This document shows, piece by piece, positions 50,558 through 63,586 of a DNA stretch of 64,000 nucleotides. This DNA comes from Candidatus Obscuribacterales bacterium (lineage in GTDB: Bacteria > Cyanobacteriota > Vampirovibrionia > Obscuribacterales > Obscuribacteraceae), in NCBI GenBank assembly GCA_019637435.1, contig JAHBVO010000001.1:1550001-1614000 (forward strand), read 5' to 3'. The position numbers and the translations under genes were made by a program. The notes under the pieces are model-generated. The model searched no databases. It saw only the letters and a program-made list of their open reading frames with translations, and was not told the origin of the DNA. How positions within the stretch are numbered: position 1 is the first letter of the stretch; each line of letters opens with the position of its first letter.

Positions 50558-50872
50558 ATGTCCGCGATGCTTGCTGTGCCCATTCTGATTCAGGTTTTCT
50601 TCAACTCCTCAGTCGCTTACTTGTTGAACAGGAGGCTTGGCGTTGCGCACTCCGTTGCGTGCCCATCAGCCTTAATCGGAGCAAGCAATTTTTTCGAGCT
50701 TGCCGTCGCTACAGCAATCAGTCTCTTTGGCTTTCATTCCGGCGCTGCTCTAGCCACCGTAGTTGGTGTCCTGATTGAAGTTCCCGTTATGCTCGCCGTT
50801 GTTCGCATCGTCAACAGTAGCAGAAACTGGTATGAACAAGGACTGTCACCTGCTTCGGGCAAACCTATTTAA
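50558..50872 (+). pseudogene. Truncated ACR3-family arsenite exporter (C-terminal part only)
   Basis: 104 codons matching the last two to three helices of ACR3/ArsB-type arsenite exporters: LIQVFFNSSVAYLLNRRLGVAHSVACPSALIGASNFFELAVATAISLFGFHSGAALATVVGVLIEVPVML. Full ACR3 proteins are about 350 residues. A stop codon stands directly before the ATG, and no upstream part of the gene is found in the 120-bp gap after arsC. It is therefore a deletion remnant, not a working pump. Its stop overlaps the stop of the convergent kinase gene. Confidence 0.85.
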
Positions 50873-52497
50873 GCCATCTCGACATTATTGAGAGTGAACG
50901 AAAACGTGCTTCCCTTGCCGACTTCGCTGTCGCACCAGAGTTTGCCACCATGTGATTCAACGATTTTGCTACAGAGATAAAGACCCAGACCCGTACTTGC
51001 GTAGTATCGACCTCCGGATGATGCTTGCCAGAATCTCTGAAACAACTTGGGTTTGTCCGCATCAGAGATGCCCTTGCCCGTGTCCGTTACGGAAACTGTC
51101 GTCACCTGTTCGTCTTGAGCTAAATCTATACTGATTGAGCCTTTCGATTGCGTGTATTTGAGCGAGTTGTCGATAAGGTTTTGCATTACTCTGCGGATTT
51201 CGTCTATGTCACAGATAACCGGAATGTTGCTTTCCGAGGATGTGAACGTCAATTCAATCTGTTTCTGTTTCGCCAGAGGAGATAGCTCCGCCACTAATGT
51301 TTCAATAGAAGCAGGAAGGTCTGTCGGAAGCATGGTCAGCTGTTTAACGCCGCTGTCGTATTTATAAACATCAAGCAAGGTGAGCACCATCTGGTACATA
51401 GCGTTGTTGCTCTGAAGAATAGTTTCAATAATGCTTCTTTGAGAATCTTGAATTGGACCGAAGTCACCTTCCATCAGAAGCTTCAGAGCCCGGTTCGCGG
51501 CCAGAATCGGCGTTTTCAAGTCGTGCGTGAGGGTCGCAACGAAGTCTTCGCGTTGCTGTTGTAAGCGAACGCTATCAGTTACCATCGTAAAGGTTGCCAC
51601 CAGTGCCGATACCACATCATTCCTCTCCTTGATGGGCCAGATTGCCCAGTCGAAAAACGATTCATGATCGGAATTGAAAAAGGTCAATTTAGCGGCTGAT
51701 GCTCGTTTTGCCACTCCAAAATTGAGGGCTTCTTCCAGGTCCGAACGCGGCAGGTCTTCGCACAATTCAAATATGGACCGCCCAATAATCTGCTCGTCAG
51801 AGTCAATAAAATTGAGAAACTCTGAATTTGCCTCTAAGCACTTGAAGTCTGGCGAGAGTCTGACAATGCCGATGGGTGCGTTTTCCACAATGCTCTTGCT
51901 GACAGTTCGCTCCGTCTCCAACCGCGAGATCATGTCCTTGTGCTCTCTTATAGCCTGGATTTTCGCCGCGTTGTAGGTGTCTATAGCCAGACCCATGTCG
52001 AAAAATATGAGCTTGGTAAGCGAGTCGACTAGCCGATTTGAGAGTTCAGGATCATCTTTGAATTCTTCCACAATGAGTGTGCGCAGGTACTTGAGTGCTC
52101 GGTAGTACGCCCCTAAGTACCAGCGTGTGTCCAGACCAATTCGATAGTGTGTCTTCCCTACGATCAGGCGGTTGTCAACGTACTCACGATCGTACTTGCC
52201 GCACGTCAGTTTCAGAAAATATTGGCGCTGTCCTGCCTTGGCTCGGTTTAAGATTTCTTCATTCGGAAAGAAACTAGCGGTGTCCTCGTGAGCCAGAAAG
52301 TGGTCGTAAAGGAAGTCCATGAGCCCGTCTACATTGCGAGCGACAAGCTGATCGAGAAGAGCTATGTTGGCTTCATCATCAGGCCCGAGTCCTAGCCACA
52401 CTTTTCTGTTTTCGATCTCCTCATCAGACATCTCCAGGTGAATGTCAGGAATGGCCGGGTAATTATAGTCAGAGAATCTCGTAGTCGGCTCTGCCAT
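50869..52497 (-). CDS. Globin-coupled sensor histidine kinase
   Basis: A 542-residue soluble kinase. Residues 25-185 resemble a protoglobin/globin sensor domain, with the probable proximal heme His H117 in IVGKTHYRIGLDTRWYLGAYY. A PAS domain spans about 200-310 (IVENAPIGIVRLSPDFKCLEANSEFLNFI). The HisKA domain has H325 in FVATLTHDLKTPILAANRALKLL, and the ATPase domain has NLIDNSLKYTQ, VTDTGKGISD and TGLGLYLCSKIVESHGG. Heme would let it sense O2, NO or CO. It is divergent from a NarL-type regulator gene, its likely partner, and lies inside a hydrogen/stress gene region. Signal type is inferred from the fold. Confidence 0.9.
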   Translation of the reverse strand: MAEPTTRFSDYNYPAIPDIHLEMSDEEIENRKVWLGLGPDDEANIALLDQLVARNVDGLMDFLYDHFLAHEDTASFFPNEEILNRAKAGQRQYFLKLTCGKYDREYVDNRLIVGKTHYRIGLDTRWYLGAYYRALKYLRTLIVEEFKDDPELSNRLVDSLTKLIFFDMGLAIDTYNAAKIQAIREHKDMISRLETERTVSKSIVENAPIGIVRLSPDFKCLEANSEFLNFIDSDEQIIGRSIFELCEDLPRSDLEEALNFGVAKRASAAKLTFFNSDHESFFDWAIWPIKERNDVVSALVATFTMVTDSVRLQQQREDFVATLTHDLKTPILAANRALKLLMEGDFGPIQDSQRSIIETILQSNNAMYQMVLTLLDVYKYDSGVKQLTMLPTDLPASIETLVAELSPLAKQKQIELTFTSSESNIPVICDIDEIRRVMQNLIDNSLKYTQSKGSISIDLAQDEQVTTVSVTDTGKGISDADKPKLFQRFWQASSGGRYYASTGLGLYLCSKIVESHGGKLWCDSEVGKGSTFSFTLNNVEMA

Positions 52498-52650: not shown

Positions 52651-53400
52651 ATGGGCGAATCTCCTGGAAGTAATCAAATAAACGTTCTGCTGGTCGAAGA
52701 CCATCAGCTGACCCGGATTGGATTGAAAACTGTTCTTGAGCGAACCGACGATATCAAGGTGATCGGCGAGGCTGAGAACGGAGAGGAAGCAATTCGGAAG
52801 GTTGGGGAGTTGAAACCGGACGTTGTCCTCATGGACGTTGGTATGCCCATCATGGACGGAATCGAGGCTGTCAACAACATTCAGCAACAGTATCAAAATG
52901 TAAACACTATCATGCTCACTTCTCATGATAACGAGCAAGATATCTTGGCTTCATTGTCCGCCGGAGCGAGCGGCTACTGCCTGAAGGATGTTGATCCCCA
53001 TCGTTTATACAGTGCCATCAGAGCGGTGAATGGCGGAGACATCTGGCTCGATTCGTCGATCGCCAGCCGGGTAATGAAAATCCAGCAAGCGCGAATGATG
53101 AAAACCGAAACAAGTCACAGCGAACACGCAAAAGGTGATGCGGCCGTTCAGCATGCTACCGCAGGTGGTGCTGGTGGGAAGGGGCAGCCACAGCTGCCAC
53201 CACTTCCGGATGCGCTTTCTCCCAGAGAGATGGAAGTTCTCTCTCTTCTTGTGGAGGGATTATCCAATCAGGAGATAGCGGACAAGCTGATAATCTCTTT
53301 GGCAACGGCGAAAACCCACGTTCGAAACATCCTGAATAAGCTCGCTGTCGATGATAGAACGCAAGCCGCTGTGCAGGCGATGCGCCGCGGTCTGGTCTAG
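52651..53400 (+). CDS. NarL/LuxR-family response regulator
   Basis: A 249-residue two-domain regulator. The receiver (residues 9-130) has acidic pocket VEDHQLT, phospho-acceptor D62 in VVLMDVGMPIMDG, Thr in IMLTSHD and Lys in YCLKDVDPHRLY. A low-complexity His/Gly/Pro linker spans residues 140-185. The LuxR-type HTH (LSPREMEVLSLLVEGLSNQEIADKLIISLATAKTHVRNILNKL) binds DNA as a dimer, commonly on palindromic sites of about 20 bp. Divergent from the globin kinase, it is the natural candidate to bind the repeated palindrome of this region. That link is inference. Confidence 0.94.
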   Translation: MGESPGSNQINVLLVEDHQLTRIGLKTVLERTDDIKVIGEAENGEEAIRKVGELKPDVVLMDVGMPIMDGIEAVNNIQQQYQNVNTIMLTSHDNEQDILASLSAGASGYCLKDVDPHRLYSAIRAVNGGDIWLDSSIASRVMKIQQARMMKTETSHSEHAKGDAAVQHATAGGAGGKGQPQLPPLPDALSPREMEVLSLLVEGLSNQEIADKLIISLATAKTHVRNILNKLAVDDRTQAAVQAMRRGLV

Positions 53401-53427: not shown

Positions 53428-55845
53428 TTACTTAGTTGAAACAGGAATTCGACTGTCTTGTGCTTCTTCTCTGGCGATTAACAAGATCGTTTTGATAACG
53501 GTATCCTCGTTCAGAGAAATGCTGTCTATCTTTTGTTTCACGAGAAATCGCGTGAACTCCGGATAGTCACTTGGTGCTTGACCGCAGATACCAATTTTGC
53601 GTCCCCGCTTTTGTGCGCCGGCAATTGCTATTTCAATCGCTCTCGTCACGGCAGGATTTCGTTCATCAAACAGCTCGGCCAGACCTTCATTGTCTCGATC
53701 TACTCCCAGAACCAATTGAGTCAGATCGTTTGAACCGATTGAAAAGCCGTCAAATATCTCCGCAAATTCGTCGATTGCCAAGACATTTGATGGTAATTCG
53801 CACATCACGTAGATTTCCAAACCATTAGCGCCTTGCTCCAAACCGTTTTTTGAAAGTTCGCGAATGACCTTTTTGCCCTCGGTAACTGTGCGGCAGAATG
53901 GAACCATCAGTTTCACATTGGTCAGACCCATTTGCTCGCGCACCTGTTTCAGAGCTTTGCATTCCAGGGCGAACCCGTCTTTATAGTCGGGACTGTAGTA
54001 ACGAGATGCGCCCCTGAAGCCAATCATTGGGTTGTCTTCGCTATTTTCAAACTGTCGACCGCCGAGTAGATTGGCGTACTCGTTGGTTTTGAAATCAGAG
54101 AGTCGCACTATCACCGGTCTCGGATAAAACGCAGCAGCGATGGTTGAAATCCCCTCTGCGAGCTTCTGAACGAAATAATCTGTTTTGGAAGGATAATGTT
54201 TTGTCAGCTCGACGATTTGTTCGCGAGCGTGTTCGTCGGTGAGTTTGTCGAAGCGCGTAAGCGCCAGTGGATGAACCTTCACTTCATTCGCAATTATAAA
54301 TTCTTCCCGAGCTAAGCCGACTCCAGCCACTGGCAGTTTCGCCAGATTGAAAGCTTGGTCCGGATTGCCCACGTTGACCATGACCTGTGTTGCGGTCGAC
54401 GGGATATTTTCTAAATCCAAAATTTGTTTTTGAAAAGAAAGCTTGCCATCATATACGATACCGGTATCGCCTTCTGCGCAGCTGACGGTAATCGCTTGAC
54501 CCTGTTTTAAAACGTCGGTGGCGCGCTGGGTTCCTACGACGCAAGGCACACCGATTTCACGGCTGACGATGGCCGCGTGGCAAGTTCTTCCGCCTCGATT
54601 GGTGACAATCGCCGCTGCCCGTTTCATAATCGGTTCCCAATCCGGGTCAGTCATGTCGGCGACTAAGACATCTCCGTCCTTGAAGTCGACGAGCTCATGC
54701 ATTGAGTGGATCACGCGAACGCAGCCAGCGCCGATCTTCTCTCCAATTGATCTACCGGATAGAATGGCTTTGCCTTTATTTTCCAGTCTGTAAGACTCAA
54801 TTGTTCGTCTGTTTGAACTGGAGTATACGGTTTCGGGACGGGCTTGAACTATATAAAGTTTGCCATCGTCACCGTCTTTCGCCCACTCGATATCCATCGC
54901 TGTCGAACGACCGAGTCTTTCTGAATAATACTTTTCGATCTGAACCGCCCATTCTGACAGTTTCAGAACGTCTTCGTCGCTGATACTAAACCGCTCCTGA
55001 CGCTCGGGAGCGACATCTATGTTTTTCGTGGTGCGAGATCCGTGTCCGGAGTAAATCATTTGCAGTCTTTTGGTACCGACTTTTCGACGCAAAATCGGTT
55101 TAAAACCCTGTTCAAGTGTGGGTTTAAAAACTATGAATTCATCAGGATCGACGCGGCCGGCGACAACATTTTCACCAAGACCGTAAGCCGATGTGATGAG
55201 AACGACGTCGCGAAAACCACTTTCAGTATCGAGTGTGAATATGACGCCAGCTGCGCCACGGTCTGACCTGACCATCTTCTGCACTGCGATTGCCAGCTTG
55301 ACGGACATGTGGTCGAAACCTTTGTCTAATCTGTATGAGATCGCTCTCTCTGTGAATAAGGATGCGAAGCAGTTTAAACATGCATTTAGAAGTTCAGCTT
55401 CGCCGCGTATGTTGAGAAAACTCTCTTGCTGACCGGCAAAGGAGGCATCCGGCAAGTCTTCTGCGGTCGCGCTCGAACGCACCGCGACGTCTGGAGTTTC
55501 GCCGTACTCTTTCGAAAGTTGTTGATACGCTGCCAATATATCTTTGGCAAGCGCATCAGGAATTCCCGCTCCCTTAATAAGCGACCTCGCTTCTAAGGCT
55601 TTCTTATTGAGATCGTCAATATCGTTTTTGTTTACCGAACCGAGCAGCTTGACGAGCTTCTGGCGGATACCGCCCTCGTCCAGCAGCAGCGAATACGCAT
55701 CTGCGGTTATGCAAAAACCATTTGGAACGGAAATTCCCGATGATGCCATTTCCCGAGTCATCTCGCCAAGGGAGGCGCTTTTCCCGCCCACGAGCGGAAT
55801 GTCGTCTATTGACACCTCATTGAACCAGCGAATAAATTTCGACAT
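53428..55845 (-). CDS. ppsA: Phosphoenolpyruvate synthase
   Basis: An 805-residue enzyme that makes PEP from pyruvate and ATP. The N-terminal ATP-grasp part has FNEVSIDDIPLVGGKSASLGEM and VAVRSSATAEDLPDASFAGQQESFLN. The swivelling phospho-His H423 is in TNRGGRTCHAAIVSREIGVPCVVG. The C-terminal barrel has GFRGASRYY, MVPFCRTVTEG and the ending IGICGQAPSDYPEFTRFLV with the catalytic Cys. AGGGAGAG precedes the ATG. It follows hcp by 30 bp, so the two form an operon. Works opposite to pyruvate kinase, supporting gluconeogenic use of fermentation carbon. Confidence 0.95.
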   Translation of the reverse strand: MSKFIRWFNEVSIDDIPLVGGKSASLGEMTREMASSGISVPNGFCITADAYSLLLDEGGIRQKLVKLLGSVNKNDIDDLNKKALEARSLIKGAGIPDALAKDILAAYQQLSKEYGETPDVAVRSSATAEDLPDASFAGQQESFLNIRGEAELLNACLNCFASLFTERAISYRLDKGFDHMSVKLAIAVQKMVRSDRGAAGVIFTLDTESGFRDVVLITSAYGLGENVVAGRVDPDEFIVFKPTLEQGFKPILRRKVGTKRLQMIYSGHGSRTTKNIDVAPERQERFSISDEDVLKLSEWAVQIEKYYSERLGRSTAMDIEWAKDGDDGKLYIVQARPETVYSSSNRRTIESYRLENKGKAILSGRSIGEKIGAGCVRVIHSMHELVDFKDGDVLVADMTDPDWEPIMKRAAAIVTNRGGRTCHAAIVSREIGVPCVVGTQRATDVLKQGQAITVSCAEGDTGIVYDGKLSFQKQILDLENIPSTATQVMVNVGNPDQAFNLAKLPVAGVGLAREEFIIANEVKVHPLALTRFDKLTDEHAREQIVELTKHYPSKTDYFVQKLAEGISTIAAAFYPRPVIVRLSDFKTNEYANLLGGRQFENSEDNPMIGFRGASRYYSPDYKDGFALECKALKQVREQMGLTNVKLMVPFCRTVTEGKKVIRELSKNGLEQGANGLEIYVMCELPSNVLAIDEFAEIFDGFSIGSNDLTQLVLGVDRDNEGLAELFDERNPAVTRAIEIAIAGAQKRGRKIGICGQAPSDYPEFTRFLVKQKIDSISLNEDTVIKTILLIAREEAQDSRIPVSTK

Positions 55846-55875: not shown

Positions 55876-57528
55876 CTATTTCGCGAGAATAGCCGCCAGA
55901 TCTTTTGATGGTTCAGTCACGAGCTTCAGTTGATAAGCCTCCGACAGAGTCTTCAACATGGTTGGTGTGACGAACGCTGGAGCATTCGGACCGATGCGAA
56001 TGTCTTTTATTCCTAAGTGAAGCAGTGAGAGTAATACCGCCACGGCTTTCTGCTCGAACCAAGAAATGATGAGCGACAGCGGGAGGTCGTTTACCGAACA
56101 ACCAAATGCGTTTGCAAGGGCGGAGGCGATAACTACTGCAGAGTGTGCATCGTTACACTGACCCAGATCAAGCAAGCGAGGAATTCCACCGATGTCGCCA
56201 AATTCGATATCGTTGAAGCGATATTTACCGCAGCCCAGGGTCAAAATGACGCAGTCTTCGGGGACTTGCTCTGCAACTTCGGTAAAATAATTTCGTGCGA
56301 ATTCGGCTCCGTCACAGCCGCCAATTAAGAAGAAGTGTTTGATTTTTCCTTCCTTCACCGCTTCAATGACTTTATCGGCGACGCTCAACACTGCATGGTG
56401 TCCGAATCCGACCGTGATACTTTTCTCTGGCTGATCGTCAGGGAAGCCCGGCAATTCGAGCGCTTGTTCGATCACTTTAGAGAAGTCGTACGCTGCTACT
56501 TTGGGTATGCCTTCCCACCCAACAACGTCTATGGTGTACAGCCTGTTTTTGTAAGATTCGGCAGGTGGTTTCAAACAATTAGTCGTCATGACTATAGGAC
56601 CCGGGAATAGCTCGAATTCTCTCACCTGATTTTGCCAGGCTGTTCCGTAGTTTCCTCGAAGATGCGGGAACCGTTTGAGAACCGGGTATCCATGCGCCGG
56701 AAGCATTTCTCCGTGAGTGTAAACGTCAATGCCTTTATCTTCTGTTTGACGCAATAGCTCAAGCAAGCTTCTCATATCGTGTCCTGAAACGAGGATGCAT
56801 TTACCCTTCTTATGGGTTGTGAGAGCCTGCGTCGGTACTGGAGAGCCGAGTGTCTCCGTATGAGCCTGGTCCAGTAATTCCATGACCCGCAAATTCATTG
56901 CACCTGTTTTCAAGCAAAGATCCAATAAGCGCGATTCATCAGGTTCTTGCTCCGCTAGACAGGCGAGAGACTCGTGCACAAAAGCGAAGACTTGTTCGTC
57001 AACATAGCCGAGCATTGCGGCGTGATGCGCATAAGCCGCCATACCCTTGATTCCGTAAATTGCCATTTCACGCAGACCAGTGAGGTCTGGTCCCTGATCC
57101 CTGATGCTGCCAAGGATTGAAATTGTATTGGCGAAATCGAGCAATTCCTGTTTTGTCTTAGGCAAAACCCAGACAGCGGGACCTGAGAATTCGCGAGGAT
57201 TGACTCCTCTGGCTTTACAGGCACAAAGATACATTTCATGTGCGCGGTCGCGTAACTGACCGAGGTATTCAATGTATCTGACGTGCTCATCCTTGTCGAA
57301 GTTGACGTTGGTAAGCGTCATGAAGAGAGCAGCCAGTGTGGTCTCGTTAATACGTTCATCGGTGGTTCCCAGAAGCCTGGCTTCATGAGCGTAGACGGAA
57401 ATTCCTTTGACAAGATAGATGATGACGTCTTGCAGATTCGCCGTTTCCGCTGTTTTTCCACAAACACCGATGCTGGTGCACGCTACACACTGTGCCGTTT
57501 GCTCACACTGGAAACAGAACATACTCAT
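55876..57528 (-). CDS. hcp: Hybrid cluster protein (hydroxylamine/NO reductase type)
   Basis: A 550-residue iron-sulfur-oxygen protein. The N-terminal Cys motif C5-x2-C8-x8-C17-x5-C23 (FCFQCEQTAQCVACTSIGVCGK) is that of class I Hcp with a [4Fe-4S] cluster. Hybrid-cluster ligands appear in HGEMLPAHGYPVLK, GCDGAEF, LTLGCGKYRFND and LLDLGQCNDAHSA. It removes NO or hydroxylamine in anaerobic nitrosative stress. The cytosolic partner reductase Hcr is not adjacent. GAGG precedes the ATG, and an operator-like element lies 58 bp upstream. Confidence 0.94.
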   Translation of the reverse strand: MSMFCFQCEQTAQCVACTSIGVCGKTAETANLQDVIIYLVKGISVYAHEARLLGTTDERINETTLAALFMTLTNVNFDKDEHVRYIEYLGQLRDRAHEMYLCACKARGVNPREFSGPAVWVLPKTKQELLDFANTISILGSIRDQGPDLTGLREMAIYGIKGMAAYAHHAAMLGYVDEQVFAFVHESLACLAEQEPDESRLLDLCLKTGAMNLRVMELLDQAHTETLGSPVPTQALTTHKKGKCILVSGHDMRSLLELLRQTEDKGIDVYTHGEMLPAHGYPVLKRFPHLRGNYGTAWQNQVREFELFPGPIVMTTNCLKPPAESYKNRLYTIDVVGWEGIPKVAAYDFSKVIEQALELPGFPDDQPEKSITVGFGHHAVLSVADKVIEAVKEGKIKHFFLIGGCDGAEFARNYFTEVAEQVPEDCVILTLGCGKYRFNDIEFGDIGGIPRLLDLGQCNDAHSAVVIASALANAFGCSVNDLPLSLIISWFEQKAVAVLLSLLHLGIKDIRIGPNAPAFVTPTMLKTLSEAYQLKLVTEPSKDLAAILAK

Positions 57529-57621: not shown

Positions 57622-58542
57622 TTACGCGATTAGATAAAGACCGCTTTTTCTCAGCCTTTTGGATTTTGTTACTTCGGTCGTGCACTGTGTATGCATCGCA
57701 ACTCCTTCAGAAACGCTGCCAAGCACAAGTTTCTCGAAATTTTGTTTGCCATGTGAACCGAGCATAATCAGGTCTGCCGGCCACTCAGCGGCATACTCAA
57801 GAATCCGCTCCTTCGGATCTCCTAATAACACCTGACCGTTTGCAACCTTTTGCTCGTACTTCGCATTGATTACGTCTGCCACTGAGTTTATCCATTCTTG
57901 ATGTTTTCGAACGACTTCGTTGAAGCTGTCCACGATGTTCTCAACGGCTAGCGTGTCGTCATCCAAAAACAAACCGGGCCCCAGGTTTGGCACAACGTGA
58001 ATACAAGTGAATCTGGTGTTTTCAGCCCATGGAAAAGAAAGCACATGGTCCAGTAGATGTTTCGAGTGTTCGGACTCTTCAAGTGCTATAAGAACGTTGT
58101 TGCGCGTTGAGTCAGGAGTCGGTTGCGGCGTGGCGCGTACGATTCGCACCGCGCACGGTGCATGAAGAAGTAGACCACGGGATACGCTGCCTAAAAAGAA
58201 CCGTTTAATCCCGCTGCGTCCGTGAGATCCTACTACGAGCAGGTCCGCAAGCCAGTTTCTGCATAGTTTCAAAATTGCATCTACGGCGAAACCGTCGAGA
58301 ATGTCCGCTGTGACCTCCGCGTCCGGATGTGCAGCGGACAATTCCGTCACAGCTTCCTGAACCAGTTCATTCGCTTTTCGATACTCTCGAAGTTGTACGT
58401 CAGGTAAAGCGGTGAATGGGTGCCACAGGTCGACAGCCGTCGCTACCTTGATCTCGGTGCCCACTGGGCAGACCATAGATTTCAGTCCTCTAAGGGCTTC
58501 CCGCGAACAGGCAGAGCCATCGGTCGCAAATACAATTCTCAT
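57622..58542 (-). CDS. Tandem-domain universal stress protein
   Basis: About 306 residues. GAGG lies six bases before the ATG at 58542, and the protein then begins MRIVFATDGSACSREALRGL, so the longer frame to 58659 is rejected. Two full UspA domains are visible: the first ends LLVVGSHGRSGIKRFFLGSVSRGLLLHAPCAVRIV, the second LIMLGSHGKQNFEKLVLGSVSEGVAMHTQCTTEV. Both nucleotide-binding motifs are intact. It lies between the hydrogenase operon and hcp, reading the same way. An operator-like site is 112 bp upstream. Confidence 0.93.
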   Translation of the reverse strand: MRIVFATDGSACSREALRGLKSMVCPVGTEIKVATAVDLWHPFTALPDVQLREYRKANELVQEAVTELSAAHPDAEVTADILDGFAVDAILKLCRNWLADLLVVGSHGRSGIKRFFLGSVSRGLLLHAPCAVRIVRATPQPTPDSTRNNVLIALEESEHSKHLLDHVLSFPWAENTRFTCIHVVPNLGPGLFLDDDTLAVENIVDSFNEVVRKHQEWINSVADVINAKYEQKVANGQVLLGDPKERILEYAAEWPADLIMLGSHGKQNFEKLVLGSVSEGVAMHTQCTTEVTKSKRLRKSGLYLIA

Positions 58543-58653
58543 AAAGGCCTCTTTTCTAAATCCAGTGAGTTTCTGTTCGTGCATCGTCCATTCGATTTCT
58601 TTCCTGGGCGAACGCACACCTGGATATAGCATCGCAAGGCATGGAGATGAGCG

Positions 58654-58673
58654 CATCATCCCAGCGGCTTATT
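58654..58673. promoter_or_regulatory. Candidate operator upstream of the tandem stress protein gene
   Basis: CATCATCC-CAGC-GGCTTATT: left arm 7/8, right arm 6/8. It ends 112 bp before the ATG at 58542, just after the hydrogenase large-subunit stop. Confidence 0.4.
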
Positions 58674-58687
58674 CATGAGTGTTCTCA

Positions 58688-60028
58688 TCAGGTGATCCGC
58701 AGGGAAACCATGTGAGTCGCGCATGTATTGCATGGATCGTATGCGCGAACAAGAGTTTCCAGATTTGCACGAAGATTCGTTGCAGATTCATCTGTCTCTG
58801 ACGGTAGTAATTGCGAAACCACTTCTTGAATATCACGTTCTATTCTGTACGTGTTTTGTGCTGAGGGAGTAACCATATCAGCTTTCGATACTTTACCCTT
58901 ATTGTCGATCTCGTAGTAATGGTAAAGTGTTCCCCTTGGGCACTCGACGGTTCCACAGCCACTACCGGCAGTGGCGTCAAGTTTTACGCGTGTATGTTGG
59001 CGGGCGTCAAAAGTGTTCCACACATCCGCGGTTCTCTCCAGTTCAGCCACGATACTGACTGCACGGTGAAATGCTTCCACAATTTCAATCGCCTGCGCCA
59101 AGTTATTCCAGATCGTGTTGTTATCGCCTAATGACATGGCACTGGAGCCGTAGATACTCTTAGCTTCACCAGTGAGGAGGCTTCCAAAGAGCGCCAACCT
59201 TGCCATCGATCCAACCATTATCGGTTGACCGTTAACAGATGATCGTTTCGCGTGGCTATGCGACACCGCTTCTTCCTTGAGATAGCTTTTGTAGTCGTTG
59301 ACGTCACATTCGAAACCGCTGGTCGCGCGGATTTTTGTACCGAAATAACCGTAGTGATCACCCTCTGGTATTAGAGCGAAAAAAATCGGTTCACTAGTTC
59401 TCCTTACACGGGGCGGAAACCGCATTAAGACTTCGCAGGTCCGAATTGTCAATTGCAGGTTCTCTTGAAGGAGTGATTTGATCTGCAGAAGACTTTCAAG
59501 TTTTGGGAAACTTGAAAAACCGCCGACATGCAAGTTTACGGGATGGAATGGGCGTCCGCCGATAGTTGTTTGAATTAACGCACCGATGTTCCGCAAGGAA
59601 GTCCACGCTTTAAATTCTTCCGTATGTTCCGAAGCAAATTTATGTACGTTATCGAAACCAAGGAAATCAGGCAATGCAAGTGCATAGATGTGCGTAGCGT
59701 TCGACTCAATGATCATACCGAGGTGCATCAGCTCTCTAAGGAGAGAAACAGTTGCATTCGGCGTAAAGCCTGCAATTCGCTCTACCGCTCTGATGGCGGC
59801 TATAACGTGTCCGGTGGAGCAAATTGCACAGACCCTGGAAGTTATGTGCGGAATCTCGTCTTGATGATGCCCCACAATCAGACGTTCGAAAAACCTGGTT
59901 CCTTCAAATACATCAAGTTTTACTTGAGTGACTTTGTCGCCTTCAATTTCGACATGCACCGCTGAGTGTCCTTCCACTCGGCATATCTCTGAAATCTCGA
60001 TCTTCTTCCTGGATTCTTCGTCTGCCAT
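58688..60028 (-). CDS. [NiFe]-hydrogenase large subunit, group 3b type
   Basis: A 446-residue catalytic subunit. The N-terminal nickel motif is RVCAICSTGH and the C-terminal one DPCNTCATH, followed by a short tail of seven residues (MVSLRIT) that the maturation protease would remove. EICRVEGHSAVHVEIEG at the start is typical. Gene order with small, FAD and Fe-S subunits upstream fits cytosolic NADP(H)-linked group 3b enzymes (sulfhydrogenase type). It is the last gene of the hypB-led operon. Group assignment is from organisation and motifs. Confidence 0.93.
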   Translation of the reverse strand: MADEESRKKIEISEICRVEGHSAVHVEIEGDKVTQVKLDVFEGTRFFERLIVGHHQDEIPHITSRVCAICSTGHVIAAIRAVERIAGFTPNATVSLLRELMHLGMIIESNATHIYALALPDFLGFDNVHKFASEHTEEFKAWTSLRNIGALIQTTIGGRPFHPVNLHVGGFSSFPKLESLLQIKSLLQENLQLTIRTCEVLMRFPPRVRRTSEPIFFALIPEGDHYGYFGTKIRATSGFECDVNDYKSYLKEEAVSHSHAKRSSVNGQPIMVGSMARLALFGSLLTGEAKSIYGSSAMSLGDNNTIWNNLAQAIEIVEAFHRAVSIVAELERTADVWNTFDARQHTRVKLDATAGSGCGTVECPRGTLYHYYEIDNKGKVSKADMVTPSAQNTYRIERDIQEVVSQLLPSETDESATNLRANLETLVRAYDPCNTCATHMVSLRIT

Positions 60029-60034
60029 CGTTCC

Positions 60035-60844
60035 CTAGCTCTTTGCCGTAAGGTTCTTTTTTACTCTCTCAAACAGTTCGTCCGGCGCTCCGAATGCGAA
60101 CAAACGCGACATCACTTCTTGCATATCGTAGCCTTTCTCTTCCAAAATCGTCGCCATCGCCTCCATCTGCGGTTGCTCGCACGGTCCCCAGCACCCGTAG
60201 CAAGCTGCACCGTATGTGGGGCAGAGGGCACCGCAACCGCCGGCGGTGACCGGACCAAGACACGGAAGATTTTGCTCTATGAGAACGCATGCGTTTTCCC
60301 TCAGCTTGCATTCGAGGCATACAGGTTTGCTTGTAATGTACGGTAGATGATCTCTCAGCAAGCTAGCGGTCACAGCAAGCAGTTGAGTGGCATTGATCGG
60401 ACACCCGGACAGTTTCACATCAACTCTAACATGGTCCTGTAGTGGCGTTGCCGGCAGGCATTCAATCGGTGAATCTTCGCCATAAGTTTCGTGCAGCAAT
60501 GAAACTGTACTCTGGTTCCGGCATCCTCCTTTTTGAACACACCCCCAAACCGCGCAGTTGCCGACGGCGACAAGCCAGCGCGCTTGCGCTCTGATTTTCA
60601 GAAGGCGCTCCAGATCGTGGGGTTGACTAACGCTTCCTTCTACAAAAGCAATATCCACGGGGCGATCTTCTTCATTTGAACTCTGCGCAAATGGGAAGCT
60701 CGCAACACGAACGTATGGAATTAGTTGCTCAAGGTTTTCCAATATGACAAGTAATTCGCCTGCGCAACCGGTTAAACCGTGAACGGCAATCGATGGAATG
60801 GTCTGGGATCTTTCCTGCCCTTTGCTCATGTTTGAACTTAGCAT
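60035..60844 (-). CDS. [NiFe]-hydrogenase small subunit, group 3b type
   Basis: A 269-residue iron-sulfur subunit. The proximal cluster region reads VHGLTGCAGELL where relatives usually have C-x2-C, so the second ligand position is Glu. Later ligands are in AVGNCAVWGC. A ferredoxin-like part has CLECKLRENACVLIEQNLPCLGPVTAGGCGALCPTYGAACYGCWGPCEQPQ. A GGAAG sequence precedes the ATG, which overlaps the stop of the FAD-subunit gene by seven bases. It passes electrons between the NiFe site and the diaphorase module. Confidence 0.93.
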   Translation of the reverse strand: MLSSNMSKGQERSQTIPSIAVHGLTGCAGELLVILENLEQLIPYVRVASFPFAQSSNEEDRPVDIAFVEGSVSQPHDLERLLKIRAQARWLVAVGNCAVWGCVQKGGCRNQSTVSLLHETYGEDSPIECLPATPLQDHVRVDVKLSGCPINATQLLAVTASLLRDHLPYITSKPVCLECKLRENACVLIEQNLPCLGPVTAGGCGALCPTYGAACYGCWGPCEQPQMEAMATILEEKGYDMQEVMSRLFAFGAPDELFERVKKNLTAKS

Positions 60845-61689
60845 TCAATAACTTCCGGTAAGAAACGAAGAGAGTCCATGCGAAACACTGGACCGTCTCG
60901 ACAAGTAAACGTGCCGCCGACAAAGCAATGTCCGCATTTACCAACTGCACACTTCATGTGCCGCTCGATAGAAAGCCAGATTTGCGAAGGGGAGAGACCT
61001 TTCTGTTTAAGTTCCTCTACCACATATTTGTACATCACCGGCGGCCCGCAGATTGCCGCAACAAAACCAGGGTCAATTTCAGCTTGTTTGATCATGTCCG
61101 TGACGCGTCCGAGTTGCCATGACACAGTTGGGAGGTCGGGACCGATTACCTCTTCCGCTGCGATGTAAACTCTCATGTCTGAACGGCGCAGCAGAAGCTT
61201 AAGCTCTTGCCGGAAAAGCAATTGCTGAGAATGGCGCATTCCATAAATCAATACAATCTTTCCAAAATCTTCTCTGCGGTCGAGAAGGTATTGCCAGAGT
61301 GAGCGAATTGGCGCAATTCCTAAACCACCTGCTATTAGCACTATATCTTTGCCCAGGTAGTCATCGATCGGAAAGCCGATTCCGTAGGGACCCCTCAACC
61401 CGACCCAGTCTCCCTCCGTTAAATTGAAAAGAGCGCCTGTAACCCTGCCGGCCTTGCGAACGCACAGTTCTAGGGTTCCGTCTGTTCTACCGGAACAAAC
61501 TGAGATTGGCGATTCACCTACACCCGGAAGCCATAGCTGGACAAACTGTCCCGGCATACATGAGGAAAACTCCTCAGGTTTATCCAGTAAGAACTCGAAC
61601 AGATAGTTGTCCTGAGACATAGGGGTGATCGAGCGTAATTTCGCTTGATTAGGAAGAAACGGAGATTGGCACGGTGTGTGATTATGCAT
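60838..61689 (-). CDS. Hydrogenase FAD/NAD(P)-binding subunit (gamma)
   Basis: About 283 residues from the ATG at 61689 with GGTGAT upstream; the longer frame to 61728 is less likely. An N-terminal FAD-binding barrel has FVQLWLPGVGESPISVCSG and RGPYGIGFPIDDYLGKDIVLIAGGLGIAPIRSLWQYLL, which includes the nucleotide motif. AAICGPPVMYKYVVEEL precedes the C-terminal [2Fe-2S] motif HMKCAVGKCGHCFVGGTFTCRDGPVF. It resembles the dihydroorotate dehydrogenase electron-transfer subunit/sulfhydrogenase gamma and couples the enzyme to NAD(P). Confidence 0.93.
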   Translation of the reverse strand: MHNHTPCQSPFLPNQAKLRSITPMSQDNYLFEFLLDKPEEFSSCMPGQFVQLWLPGVGESPISVCSGRTDGTLELCVRKAGRVTGALFNLTEGDWVGLRGPYGIGFPIDDYLGKDIVLIAGGLGIAPIRSLWQYLLDRREDFGKIVLIYGMRHSQQLLFRQELKLLLRRSDMRVYIAAEEVIGPDLPTVSWQLGRVTDMIKQAEIDPGFVAAICGPPVMYKYVVEELKQKGLSPSQIWLSIERHMKCAVGKCGHCFVGGTFTCRDGPVFRMDSLRFLPEVIEC

Positions 61690-62803
61690 GTTGATCACCA
61701 TCTGCGGTATCGCACTGGCAGTCACCACAGCTAGTACCGCAGCCTCCGGCTTGAGTCTTTTTCTTATCAGTTACCAATATTGACGGTTTCCCTTGTAAGC
61801 GTAAGACTACATTCACAATATCGTCGATTCCTGCAGGACAAGATTCCGTGCACCTTCCGCATCCGACGCAGGTCGGCAGTCCATGAGGGTCCTCGAATCC
61901 ATGGAGCTTGTGGCGATACCAGAATTTCAACCTGTCGACCGGTCCCGGCCGAAAGTTGGTATCACCGGCTACTTTAGCAAAACCCACAAACTGACAGCTG
62001 TCCCATTCTCGAACACGTTCTCCTCTATTTGCGTGAAGGCTTGCGACATCAACCATATCGAAGCAATAGCAAGTTGGACAAACGGGAGTGCAATTACCAC
62101 AACTCAAGCAGCGATTTCCTAAGTCATCCCATACCTGACTGTTCCATTCCATATCCATGATTGCCGGCAAATTTTCGGACTCGAAGTGCGAACTAAAGGC
62201 TTTATCGCGCGTTGTCCAAAAGTCTTTGAACGTTTGATCTTCTTGCGCTTCGGGGCGGGAGAAAAAGTCAGGCATCGATTCGATCAGGTTTAAACCATTC
62301 GCTGAATGTATTTGTACGAAATACTTGTCCCCGATATCGGTTAAAAAAAGATCGTAGTCTGACGTCGGGGAATCGGTGCCCATGGATTTGCAGAAGCAGT
62401 GTTTGTCGGGCATGCACGAAAGACCCACCAACATGGTAGCCTGGCGTCTGGCAATGTAATGCGGGTCTGGTGGTGATGCGGTATAGACTTTGTCCATTAT
62501 CCCCAGACCTGCCAGATCGCAAGGATGAACTCCGAAGATGACTTGCTGTTGTGTCTCCGGTTTTACCTCGTGTATGCCGTTTTCATCATATGAGAGAATC
62601 GGCTCATGCTGCTGGAAGAAGAACTTCTTCGGTGGCAGAATTGTTCTTAGCGCTTCAAAAGCAATCTGAGAGGGTGATTCGATCGATTTAAACGAGAACG
62701 ATTTTTCTGATACACGAACGGGCGCGAAAACCTTTCCAAAGCTTTTTAACAAACAAAAGAATTGTTCAAATTGATCTTTTTTGAAGGTAGCGGTCCGTTC
62801 CAT
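61682..62803 (-). CDS. Hydrogenase 4Fe-4S subunit (beta)
   Basis: A 373-residue protein. A family-specific N-terminal region (to about residue 220) is followed by two 4Fe-4S ferredoxin motifs: CLSCGNCTPVCPTCYCFDMVD and CVGCGRCTESCPAGID. The tail is Cys-rich (GGCGTSCGDCQCDTADGD). Second in the operon, seven bases after hypB. It transfers electrons within the group 3b complex, possibly to ferredoxin or polysulfide as proposed for sulfhydrogenases. Confidence 0.92.
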   Translation of the reverse strand: MERTATFKKDQFEQFFCLLKSFGKVFAPVRVSEKSFSFKSIESPSQIAFEALRTILPPKKFFFQQHEPILSYDENGIHEVKPETQQQVIFGVHPCDLAGLGIMDKVYTASPPDPHYIARRQATMLVGLSCMPDKHCFCKSMGTDSPTSDYDLFLTDIGDKYFVQIHSANGLNLIESMPDFFSRPEAQEDQTFKDFWTTRDKAFSSHFESENLPAIMDMEWNSQVWDDLGNRCLSCGNCTPVCPTCYCFDMVDVASLHANRGERVREWDSCQFVGFAKVAGDTNFRPGPVDRLKFWYRHKLHGFEDPHGLPTCVGCGRCTESCPAGIDDIVNVVLRLQGKPSILVTDKKKTQAGGCGTSCGDCQCDTADGDQHA

Positions 62804-62810
62804 CTTAACC

Positions 62811-63512
62811 TCAGTGGCTGTGAGAATGTGCCGTCGCTTCTGCTGCTTTTAAACTCATGGCGCATTTGTCATTAAGCCACGAGCAAAAGCCTTCGATACC
62901 TTCACCAGATTTCGCACTGACTTTGAATAGGTCAGCTTTGCTGTTTAAACTTGAAATTGCTTTATGTAGGCGATCGAAATCAAAATCCACCAATTCTGCT
63001 AGATCCATTTTTGTTATCACAACCGCGTCGCAGTTGCGAAAAATGACCGGATATTTCAGTGGTTTGTCGTCGCCCTCGGTAACGGATAGCAATACTATCC
63101 GGAGATGTTCGCCTAGTGGAAATTCAGCTGGGCAGACCAGGTTGCCGACGTTCTCTATAATGATGAGATCTCCAGCCGGTGATTTGTTTGAGTCTATTAG
63201 CCTGCTAATCATCTTTGCGTCAAGATGGCAGCTCCGACCAGTGCTGATCTGCACTGCGTTTATGCCTGCATCTCGAAGTCTCTGCGCGTCGATGTCCCCG
63301 ACCATATCACCTTCAATGACACCGATTGATCTTTCCGATCTCAGTTCGTTCGCGAGTTTTGATATAAGAGTAGTTTTGCCAGCTCCCGGTGCGCTCATTA
63401 AATTAACAGCAAATGCGCCTGCGTGTTCAAAGCTGTGCCGGTTGGCATGAGCGAGCTGATCGTTGTCTTCCAGAATGCGCTTTAGAAGATGTTCGTCTGT
63501 ACTGTCGTGCAT
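62811..63512 (-). CDS. hypB: Nickel-inserting GTPase HypB
   Basis: About 233 residues from the ATG at 63512, which has AGGAGGAG upstream. Walker A is SAPGAGKTTLISKLA, then GDMVGDIDAQRLRDAG, the nickel/zinc-site pattern STGRSCHLDAKM and IIENVGNLVCPAEFPLG, and the GTP-specificity motif VITKMDLAEL. It lacks the N-terminal CxxCGC motif and a long His tract; the C-terminus ends HSHSH. With HypA it loads nickel into the hydrogenase large subunit. It heads the hydrogenase operon, apart from the other hyp genes. Confidence 0.96.
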   Translation of the reverse strand: MHDSTDEHLLKRILEDNDQLAHANRHSFEHAGAFAVNLMSAPGAGKTTLISKLANELRSERSIGVIEGDMVGDIDAQRLRDAGINAVQISTGRSCHLDAKMISRLIDSNKSPAGDLIIIENVGNLVCPAEFPLGEHLRIVLLSVTEGDDKPLKYPVIFRNCDAVVITKMDLAELVDFDFDRLHKAISSLNSKADLFKVSAKSGEGIEGFCSWLNDKCAMSLKAAEATAHSHSH

Positions 63513-63566
63513 AGAATGCTCCTCCTGCCGACCCATTGATAGAGTACCCGAAATTCCGCAAGTTCT

Positions 63567-63586
63567 AATCATCCGGTTGGGCTATT
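63567..63586. promoter_or_regulatory. Candidate operator upstream of the hydrogenase operon
   Basis: AATCATCC-GGTT-GGGCTATT: left arm perfect, right arm 5/8. It ends 55 bp before the hypB ATG. Confidence 0.5.

Follow-up and report, generated by a model that had tools for sequence, protein, structure and literature searches.

A glutamate in the proximal CxxC motif and an additional cysteine in the group 3b-type [NiFe]-hydrogenase small subunit of Obscuribacterales

The small subunit (HydD) of a group 3b-type [NiFe]-hydrogenase from a Candidatus Obscuribacterales bacterium differs from its canonical relatives in two residues of the proximal cluster site, a glutamate (Glu30) standing at the second cysteine of the CxxC motif and an additional cysteine (Cys102) at the position of Cys120 of Hyd-1, and this remodelling is real and clade-wide. 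The gene lies in the window—the whole stretch of 64,000 nucleotides analysed here—taken from an assembly of 7.66 Mb in 6 contigs, the nearest named relatives being Candidatus Obscuribacterales, Obscuribacter or Melainabacteria. As judged from the sequences, the two changes suggest an altered electron relay in the hydrogenase of Obscuribacterales, non-photosynthetic relatives of cyanobacteria.

The operon is intact, with the gene order hypB-hydB-hydG-hydD-hydA, all on the minus strand:

62811..63572, minus strand: hypB, GTPase of the CobW/HypB/UreG family, the name HypB being given from its place beside the hydrogenase
61682..62803, minus strand: hydB, 4Fe-4S subunit
60838..61728, minus strand: hydG, FAD/NAD(P)-binding subunit with a [2Fe-2S] domain
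60035..60844, minus strand: hydD, group 3b-type [NiFe]-hydrogenase small subunit of 269 amino acid residues, homologue of SHI delta
58688..60028, minus strand: hydA, [NiFe] large subunit with the motifs RVCAIC and DPCNTC intact

The hydD ORF, the translation of which includes HGLTGCAGELLVI, matches the Pfam family Oxidored_q6 (2.2e-21), and its best match among solved structures is the delta subunit of Pyrococcus furiosus SHI (phmmer, E 7.7e-46), the MvhG, NAD-reducing and F420-reducing small subunits matching much more weakly. The hydBGDA genes supply the large, small, FAD/NAD(P) and FeS subunits of a group 3b operon, and HydA, with both its CxxC motifs, is nearer to SHI alpha (274.6 bits) than to the alpha subunits of Mvh (164.1), the NAD-reducing Hox type (112.6) or Frh (81.2 at best). 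A proximal cluster held by four cysteines is usual in group 3b, although not defining, and in HydD Glu30 replaces a CxxC cysteine. It should be noted that HydD stays below the curated cut-offs of the NCBIfam models HydD (NF040836; 170.8 vs 500 bits) and ShyD (NF040831; 169.3 vs 460 bits). No F420-binding FrhB was found in the scan of the operon's five ORFs (58688-63572). A pseudogene or a non-hydrogenase homologue is ruled out by the intact CxxC motifs of HydA and by the other cluster cysteines kept in HydD. The large subunit has peculiarities of its own: ECPRG is present in 23/23 readable rows of the E-type, i.e. the Glu30-bearing proteins (L040 and L046 being incomplete), vs E[AV]PRG in 12/12 canonical 3b rows, and DPCNTC in the E-type vs DPCISC in the canonical 3b rows. 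The extra cysteine of ECPRG lies, as we assume, two residues before the active-site arginine.

Concerning the small subunit, the residues of the proximal site are encoded as follows:

60764..60766, minus strand: Cys27 codon, first proximal ligand (Cys17 of Hyd-1)
60755..60757, minus strand: Glu30 codon, at the second cysteine of the proximal CxxC
60638..60640, minus strand: Glu69 codon, equivalent of Hyd-1 Glu76, invariant also in the 11 canonical 3b rows
60554..60556, minus strand: Cys97 codon, third proximal ligand (Cys115 of Hyd-1)
60539..60541, minus strand: Cys102 codon, extra cysteine at the Hyd-1 Cys120 position
60401..60403, minus strand: Cys148 codon, fourth proximal ligand (Cys149 of Hyd-1)

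The proximal motif of HydD reads LTGCAGELL (C27-A-G-E30), whereas the other group 3b small subunits have C-x-G-C, as in the canonical FASCDGCQL and in LTSCYGCQL of P. furiosus. A glutamate at a proximal-cluster cysteine position had been pointed out in an earlier note on this DNA, and it proved to be shared by 29/29 readable homologues of the order. Only two stretches of 7 residues are fully invariant in the 22 aligned sequences, one of them being residues 26-32, while the Glu30 codon is GAA in 19 and GAG in 9 of the 28 homologues. With synonymous codons and recurrence in many genomes, the glutamate is neither a sequencing error nor a matter of chance, and a frameshift or assembly error behind the motif is likewise ruled out.

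The search of the order covered 53 Obscuribacterales genomes, the window's own included, 40 of which were matched, 30 to a HydD-type protein (E at most 1.1e-59) and 10 only weakly. The 29 readable copies among the 30 consist of 28 aligned sequences and the split gene L022; the remaining one, L101, is without the N-terminal region. In L022 (genome G038) the small-subunit gene runs in two frames, the cause being either a genuine frameshift or an error in the assembly. Eight of the ten weakly matching genomes were fetched (L023-L030), with CSGC in seven of them and L024 unread there; where read, these proteins appear to be HoxY-like by their likeness to photosynthetic cyanobacterial sequences. 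It is possible that two cytosolic hydrogenases have been exchanged for each other among the genomes of Obscuribacterales. Across the class, 30/289 genomes were matched at 1e-20 or better, all 30 belonging to Obscuribacterales. A 3b-like protein is found in 7/18 genomes of another class of the phylum, with CxGC in all six that are readable at CxxC, and the plasmid 3b proteins from Paraburkholderia, Rhodococcus and Streptomyces—five fetched from 13 records covering at least 80% of the query—have CDGC in 5/5 read. Glu30 is thus present in 0/12 canonical 3b small subunits read (Cyanobacteriota of another class, Actinomycetota, Burkholderiales and Pyrococcus), cysteine occupying the position in 12/12, so that on this limited sample glutamate as a common trait of all 3b relatives—the outcome by which the earlier note would have fallen—is ruled out. 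Since other phyla lie beyond the sample, it is firm that Glu30 is not a general 3b trait, but not firm that it occurs only in Obscuribacterales. A scan of genome_contigs by short exact HydD peptides, which favours close relatives, yielded 24 loci, 21 of them titled Obscuribacterales, Obscuribacter, Melainabacteria or Cyanobacteria/Cyanobacteriota and 3 only 'bacterium'; in viral_contigs no relative was found.

The register of the motif deserves attention, since from the motif to strand 2, in the region of helix 1, HydD has 2-3 residues fewer than its relatives. In the profile-profile alignment with 11 canonical 3b sequences, Glu30 stands opposite the second cysteine of CxxC; phmmer with SHI and MAFFT with seven mixed sequences leave the second cysteine opposite a gap; and phmmer with MvhG 5odc and with 9sfi as well as hhalign with HoxY-like sequences slide the motif by 3, so that Cys27 meets the second cysteine and Leu24 the first. 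One CxxC cysteine is absent from HydD whichever register is taken. An AlphaFold2 model (22 sequences; mean pLDDT 63.9, falling below 50 at residues 168-223) shows helix 1 over residues 28-36 and finds its matches in SHI delta and the Mvh, Frh and group 1 small subunits. The matched ranges begin at residue 15 against 1 of SHI delta (9e1j), 17 against 2 of MvhG (5odc), 14 against 4 of Hyd-1 (3uqy) and 15 against 45 of FrhG (4omf), the comparison giving the range ends only and the C27/E30 register holding if no gap falls between. The register with Cys27 as the first cysteine and Glu30 as the second is preferred because the closest relatives align in this way, the count from strand 1 to Cys27 is unchanged, the glycine between the ligands is kept, and the structure comparison starts accordingly for SHI, MvhG, Hyd-1 and FrhG. 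In this register Glu30 would occupy the position of FrhG Asp60 and of Hyd-1 Cys20, and the analogy to the aspartate of the F420-reducing enzyme, drawn in the earlier note, is borne out by both alignments with FrhG (phmmer, 15-175 to 45-196; VIA-align, 15 to 45).

The earlier note, however, missed the second change, Cys102. Its worry that the cysteine might simply have shifted elsewhere holds in part: none has moved inside the motif, but a new one has appeared at the Cys120 position. The site reads GNCAVWGC vs GACATAGG elsewhere, and in the longer context GNCAVWGCVQ in the HydD family vs GACATAGGIQ in canonical 3b, E. coli HyaA having GTCASWGCVQ and HybO GSCSAWGG. Cysteines 62, 64, 65, 160, 165 and 194 of the HyaA precursor correspond, with the offset of 45 counted here, to the mature C17, C19, C20, C115, C120 and C149, the six numbers given in PMC5186783; the equivalence of Cys102 with Cys120 follows from the alignment to HyaA together with this mature numbering. 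At positions 19 and 20 of Hyd-1 the HydD protein has Gly29 and Glu30, and so no cysteine at either. Cys102 is present in 29/30 readable sequences of the order (28/29 aligned plus the split gene L022), with the codon TGC in 16 and TGT in 12, and the use of both codons for Cys102 as well as for Glu30 points to selection on the protein. The sole exception is L005 (the same protein as L033), which keeps Glu30 and has glycine at the Cys102 site (GSCAVWGGVQ), indicating that Cys102 is not essential. Glycine stands there also in 13/13 canonical 3b sequences (L055-L061, L084-L088 and P. furiosus). The residues Cys27, Cys97, Cys148 and Glu69 are invariant in 22/22 aligned sequences. A further extra cysteine at residue 108 (60521-60523) is common, being present in 20/22 aligned sequences, but its position varies, the contexts among the homologues being KGGC, GALC, GSC and KC.

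The evolutionary tree of 39 small subunits gathers the E-type proteins in one group (99/94) and sets the 30 3b-like rows apart from the HoxY-like rows (100/100), the tree being rooted at the midpoint, with P. furiosus as the sole archaeal 3b sequence and long branches flagged. The placing of P. furiosus on the side of the E-type proteins is weak (92/53) and comes with a long-branch warning. Both Glu30 and Cys102 are present in the order's second family, represented by L021 and L022, and this makes a single origin in the ancestor of the order the simplest reading; the ligand set would thus, most simply, have been rebuilt once in that ancestor.

The neighbourhood of the operon contains the following genes:

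50869..52497, minus strand: protoglobin-PAS-histidine kinase, likely O2 sensor
52651..53400, plus strand: response regulator, REC-GerE, LuxR-type
53428-55845: phosphoenolpyruvate synthase-like gene, named from its translation alone
55876-57528: hybrid cluster (prismane) protein, one gene from the hydrogenase operon
57622..58659, minus strand: universal stress protein with two Usp stretches

The globin kinase and the divergent response regulator, located approximately 5 to 8 kb downstream of hydA, likely form an oxygen-sensing two-component system, which may control the hydrogenase island; the genes of the stress protein, the hybrid cluster protein and the phosphoenolpyruvate synthase-like protein sit between this pair and hydA, and two c-type cytochromes are found 12-20 kb away. 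Of the 24 homologous loci, several of which are ended by contig ends, 18 contain Usp homologues, 15 contain hypB, 3 a homologue of the response regulator and 2 one of the globin kinase, L032 and L051 having both; none of these loci, some of which are short, yielded a homologue of the hybrid cluster protein. The neighbourhood would be compatible with low-oxygen expression. A universal stress protein or ppsA is found close to some of the plasmid 3b operons as well.

Based on the above results, we tentatively favour, at slightly less than an even chance, a group 3b NAD(P)H hydrogenase specific to the clade, with a proximal cluster resting on three cysteines and Glu30, with Cys102 as an extra thiolate and with a changed potential and perhaps a changed O2 response. 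In this cytosolic enzyme, in which the second CxxC cysteine would have given way to Glu30 and Cys102 would have been gained at the Cys120 position, Glu30 would ligate Fe4—the iron held by Cys20 in group 1—with Glu69 beside it, Cys27, Cys97 and Cys148 would hold the remaining three irons, and Cys102, beside Fe3, would act as a fifth thiolate or as a reserve. With a hard carboxylate and an additional thiolate, the cluster would have a shifted potential and may open on oxidation, and such an opening could help the enzyme of facultatively aerobic bacteria through oxygen swings. Glu30 is favoured as a true ligand by three precedents, i.e. Asp60 of FrhG, placed near a proximal cluster described as [4Fe4S] in PMC3591093, the aspartate or asparagine at proximal position 2 elsewhere, and the glutamate that, according to PMC9503767, is a ligand of the proximal [4Fe-4S] cluster in NfnL, an enzyme whose two branches appear to be uncoupled by E126C. 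The earlier suggestion that a carboxylate ligand is possible gains from the second of them: aspartate and asparagine at that position are natural or tolerated elsewhere, aspartate being functional and asparagine also active in an engineered hydrogenase (PMC4070099). Against the favoured reading counts the shortening of the region, as the slid registers take Glu30 off the ligand position.

That the cluster is also more oxygen-proof is a further step, to be taken at lower odds, since MBH and Hyd-1 depend on both extra cysteines for sustained H2 oxidation at high O2 and HydD is without Cys19, having there a glycine as oxygen-sensitive enzymes do. According to PMC10583674, Cys120 binds Fe3 in the C. 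necator MBH, and in both MBH and Hyd-1 the replacement of one of the two extra cysteines leaves no sustained H2 oxidation at high O2, so that Cys102 alone need not give oxygen tolerance. The same paper describes the MBH variant C19G, which like HydD has no cysteine at 19 and a cysteine at 120: the oxidised form is a Cys5[4Fe-4S] cluster with Cys120 holding approximately 70% of Fe3, whereas in the H2-reduced form approximately 80% of Fe3 is off Cys120.

The variant also bears on an unlikely alternative, namely that Cys102 supplies the fourth thiolate (C27, C97, C102 and C148) and Glu30 lies in the second sphere, e.g. in a proton relay or as a helix cap. The number of cysteines near the site would then stay at four, Cys102 accompanies Glu30 in 29/30 readable sequences, Cys120 can hold Fe3 in the MBH variants (PMC10583674), and Glu30 is off the ligand position in the slid registers; L005/L033, however, have Glu30 without Cys102, the invariance of Glu30 argues for a direct role, and a straight exchange would need a rotated cluster, since in group 1, according to PMC5811149, Cys20 and Glu76 are at Fe4 and the added cysteine holds the Fe3 released from the cubane. 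It could further be imagined, although we consider it rather improbable, that a redox-plastic proximal cluster has evolved a second time, by an independent route, in this cytosolic group 3b hydrogenase, with Glu30 at Fe4 permanently mimicking the amide—it would play the role of the deprotonated backbone amide in the superoxidised group 1 cluster—and Cys102 holding a mobile Fe3, more than one electron becoming available for clearing O2.

Group 1h enzymes with an aspartate as proximal ligand exist. A further, quite doubtful proposal is that Glu30 leaves the fourth corner empty, the proximal cluster being [3Fe-4S] with a raised potential that biases the enzyme to H2 uptake. The precedent is Huc, whose three clusters are assigned as [3Fe-4S] in PMC10017518 on the basis of EPR, of the maps and of the fourth coordinating residue, and it counts against the favoured three-cysteine-plus-Glu30 cluster too, since an altered ligand set can yield [3Fe-4S] instead; a cysteine substitution in PsaC can do so as well (PMC4070099). 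On the other hand, the proximal cluster of FrhG, which likewise has a carboxylate there, is described as [4Fe4S] (PMC3591093), and Cys102 could provide the fourth thiolate. Moreover, group 3b enzymes operate at low NAD(P)H potential, at which the formation of H2 would be hindered by a proximal cluster of high potential. Least probable of all appears neutrality, i.e. Glu30 as a tolerated ancestral substitution that ligates without any particular effect on potential or oxygen response, which would agree with the activity of aspartate and asparagine in the engineered hydrogenase (PMC4070099, as above), but not with the invariance of Glu30 across the order despite identities down to approximately 60% and with the coupled gain of Cys102. 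The latter two features suggest selection on the site.

Work on the part that the proximal cluster plays in oxygen tolerance and in the direction of catalysis has largely concerned group 1 enzymes and engineered variants. Obscuribacterales now offer an order with glutamate at this position in every readable copy, in a natural, soluble NAD(P)H-coupled enzyme with two linked changes in one ligand shell, so that the role of ligand identity becomes testable in a soluble enzyme, the L005-type variant with glutamate and without the extra cysteine being a built-in natural control. No paper describing the proximal site of HydD was found in the open-access PMC literature; the supplement of PMC6349859 is said to treat cytoplasmic hydrogenases of Melainabacteria. 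PMC4070099 (2014) states that glutamate occurs at ligating positions of [NiFe]-hydrogenases, that it was omitted from the mutant panel as rare in alignments, and that it is one carbon longer than aspartate, second-sphere changes being thought likely to be needed.

With regard to known systems, Huc (group 1h) resembles HydD as a natural hydrogenase with an altered set of cluster ligands, although it belongs to another hydrogenase group. FrhG of group 3a shares the carboxylate at the second cysteine of the proximal CxxC, Asp60, but HydD has glutamate instead of aspartate and an operon lacking FrhB among the ORFs scanned. The oxygen-tolerant group 1 enzymes Hyd-1 and MBH, with their Cys6[4Fe-3S] cluster, have in common with HydD the cysteine at 120 in a kindred context and the equivalents of Cys17, Cys115, Cys149 and Glu76, while HydD is without Cys19 (Gly29), has glutamate for Cys20 and belongs to a cytosolic group 3 enzyme, not a membrane-bound one. 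From group 3b and SHI it deviates by C-A-G-E for C-x-G-C, by GCVQ for GGVQ/GGIQ and by the shorter helix 1 region, yet the P. furiosus SHI (PDB 9nez) remains the closest counterpart, with the same four-subunit arrangement hydB-hydG-hydD-hydA, the top PDB match for both delta and alpha, and the C-terminal cluster cysteines of SHI delta matched in the alignment of HydD.
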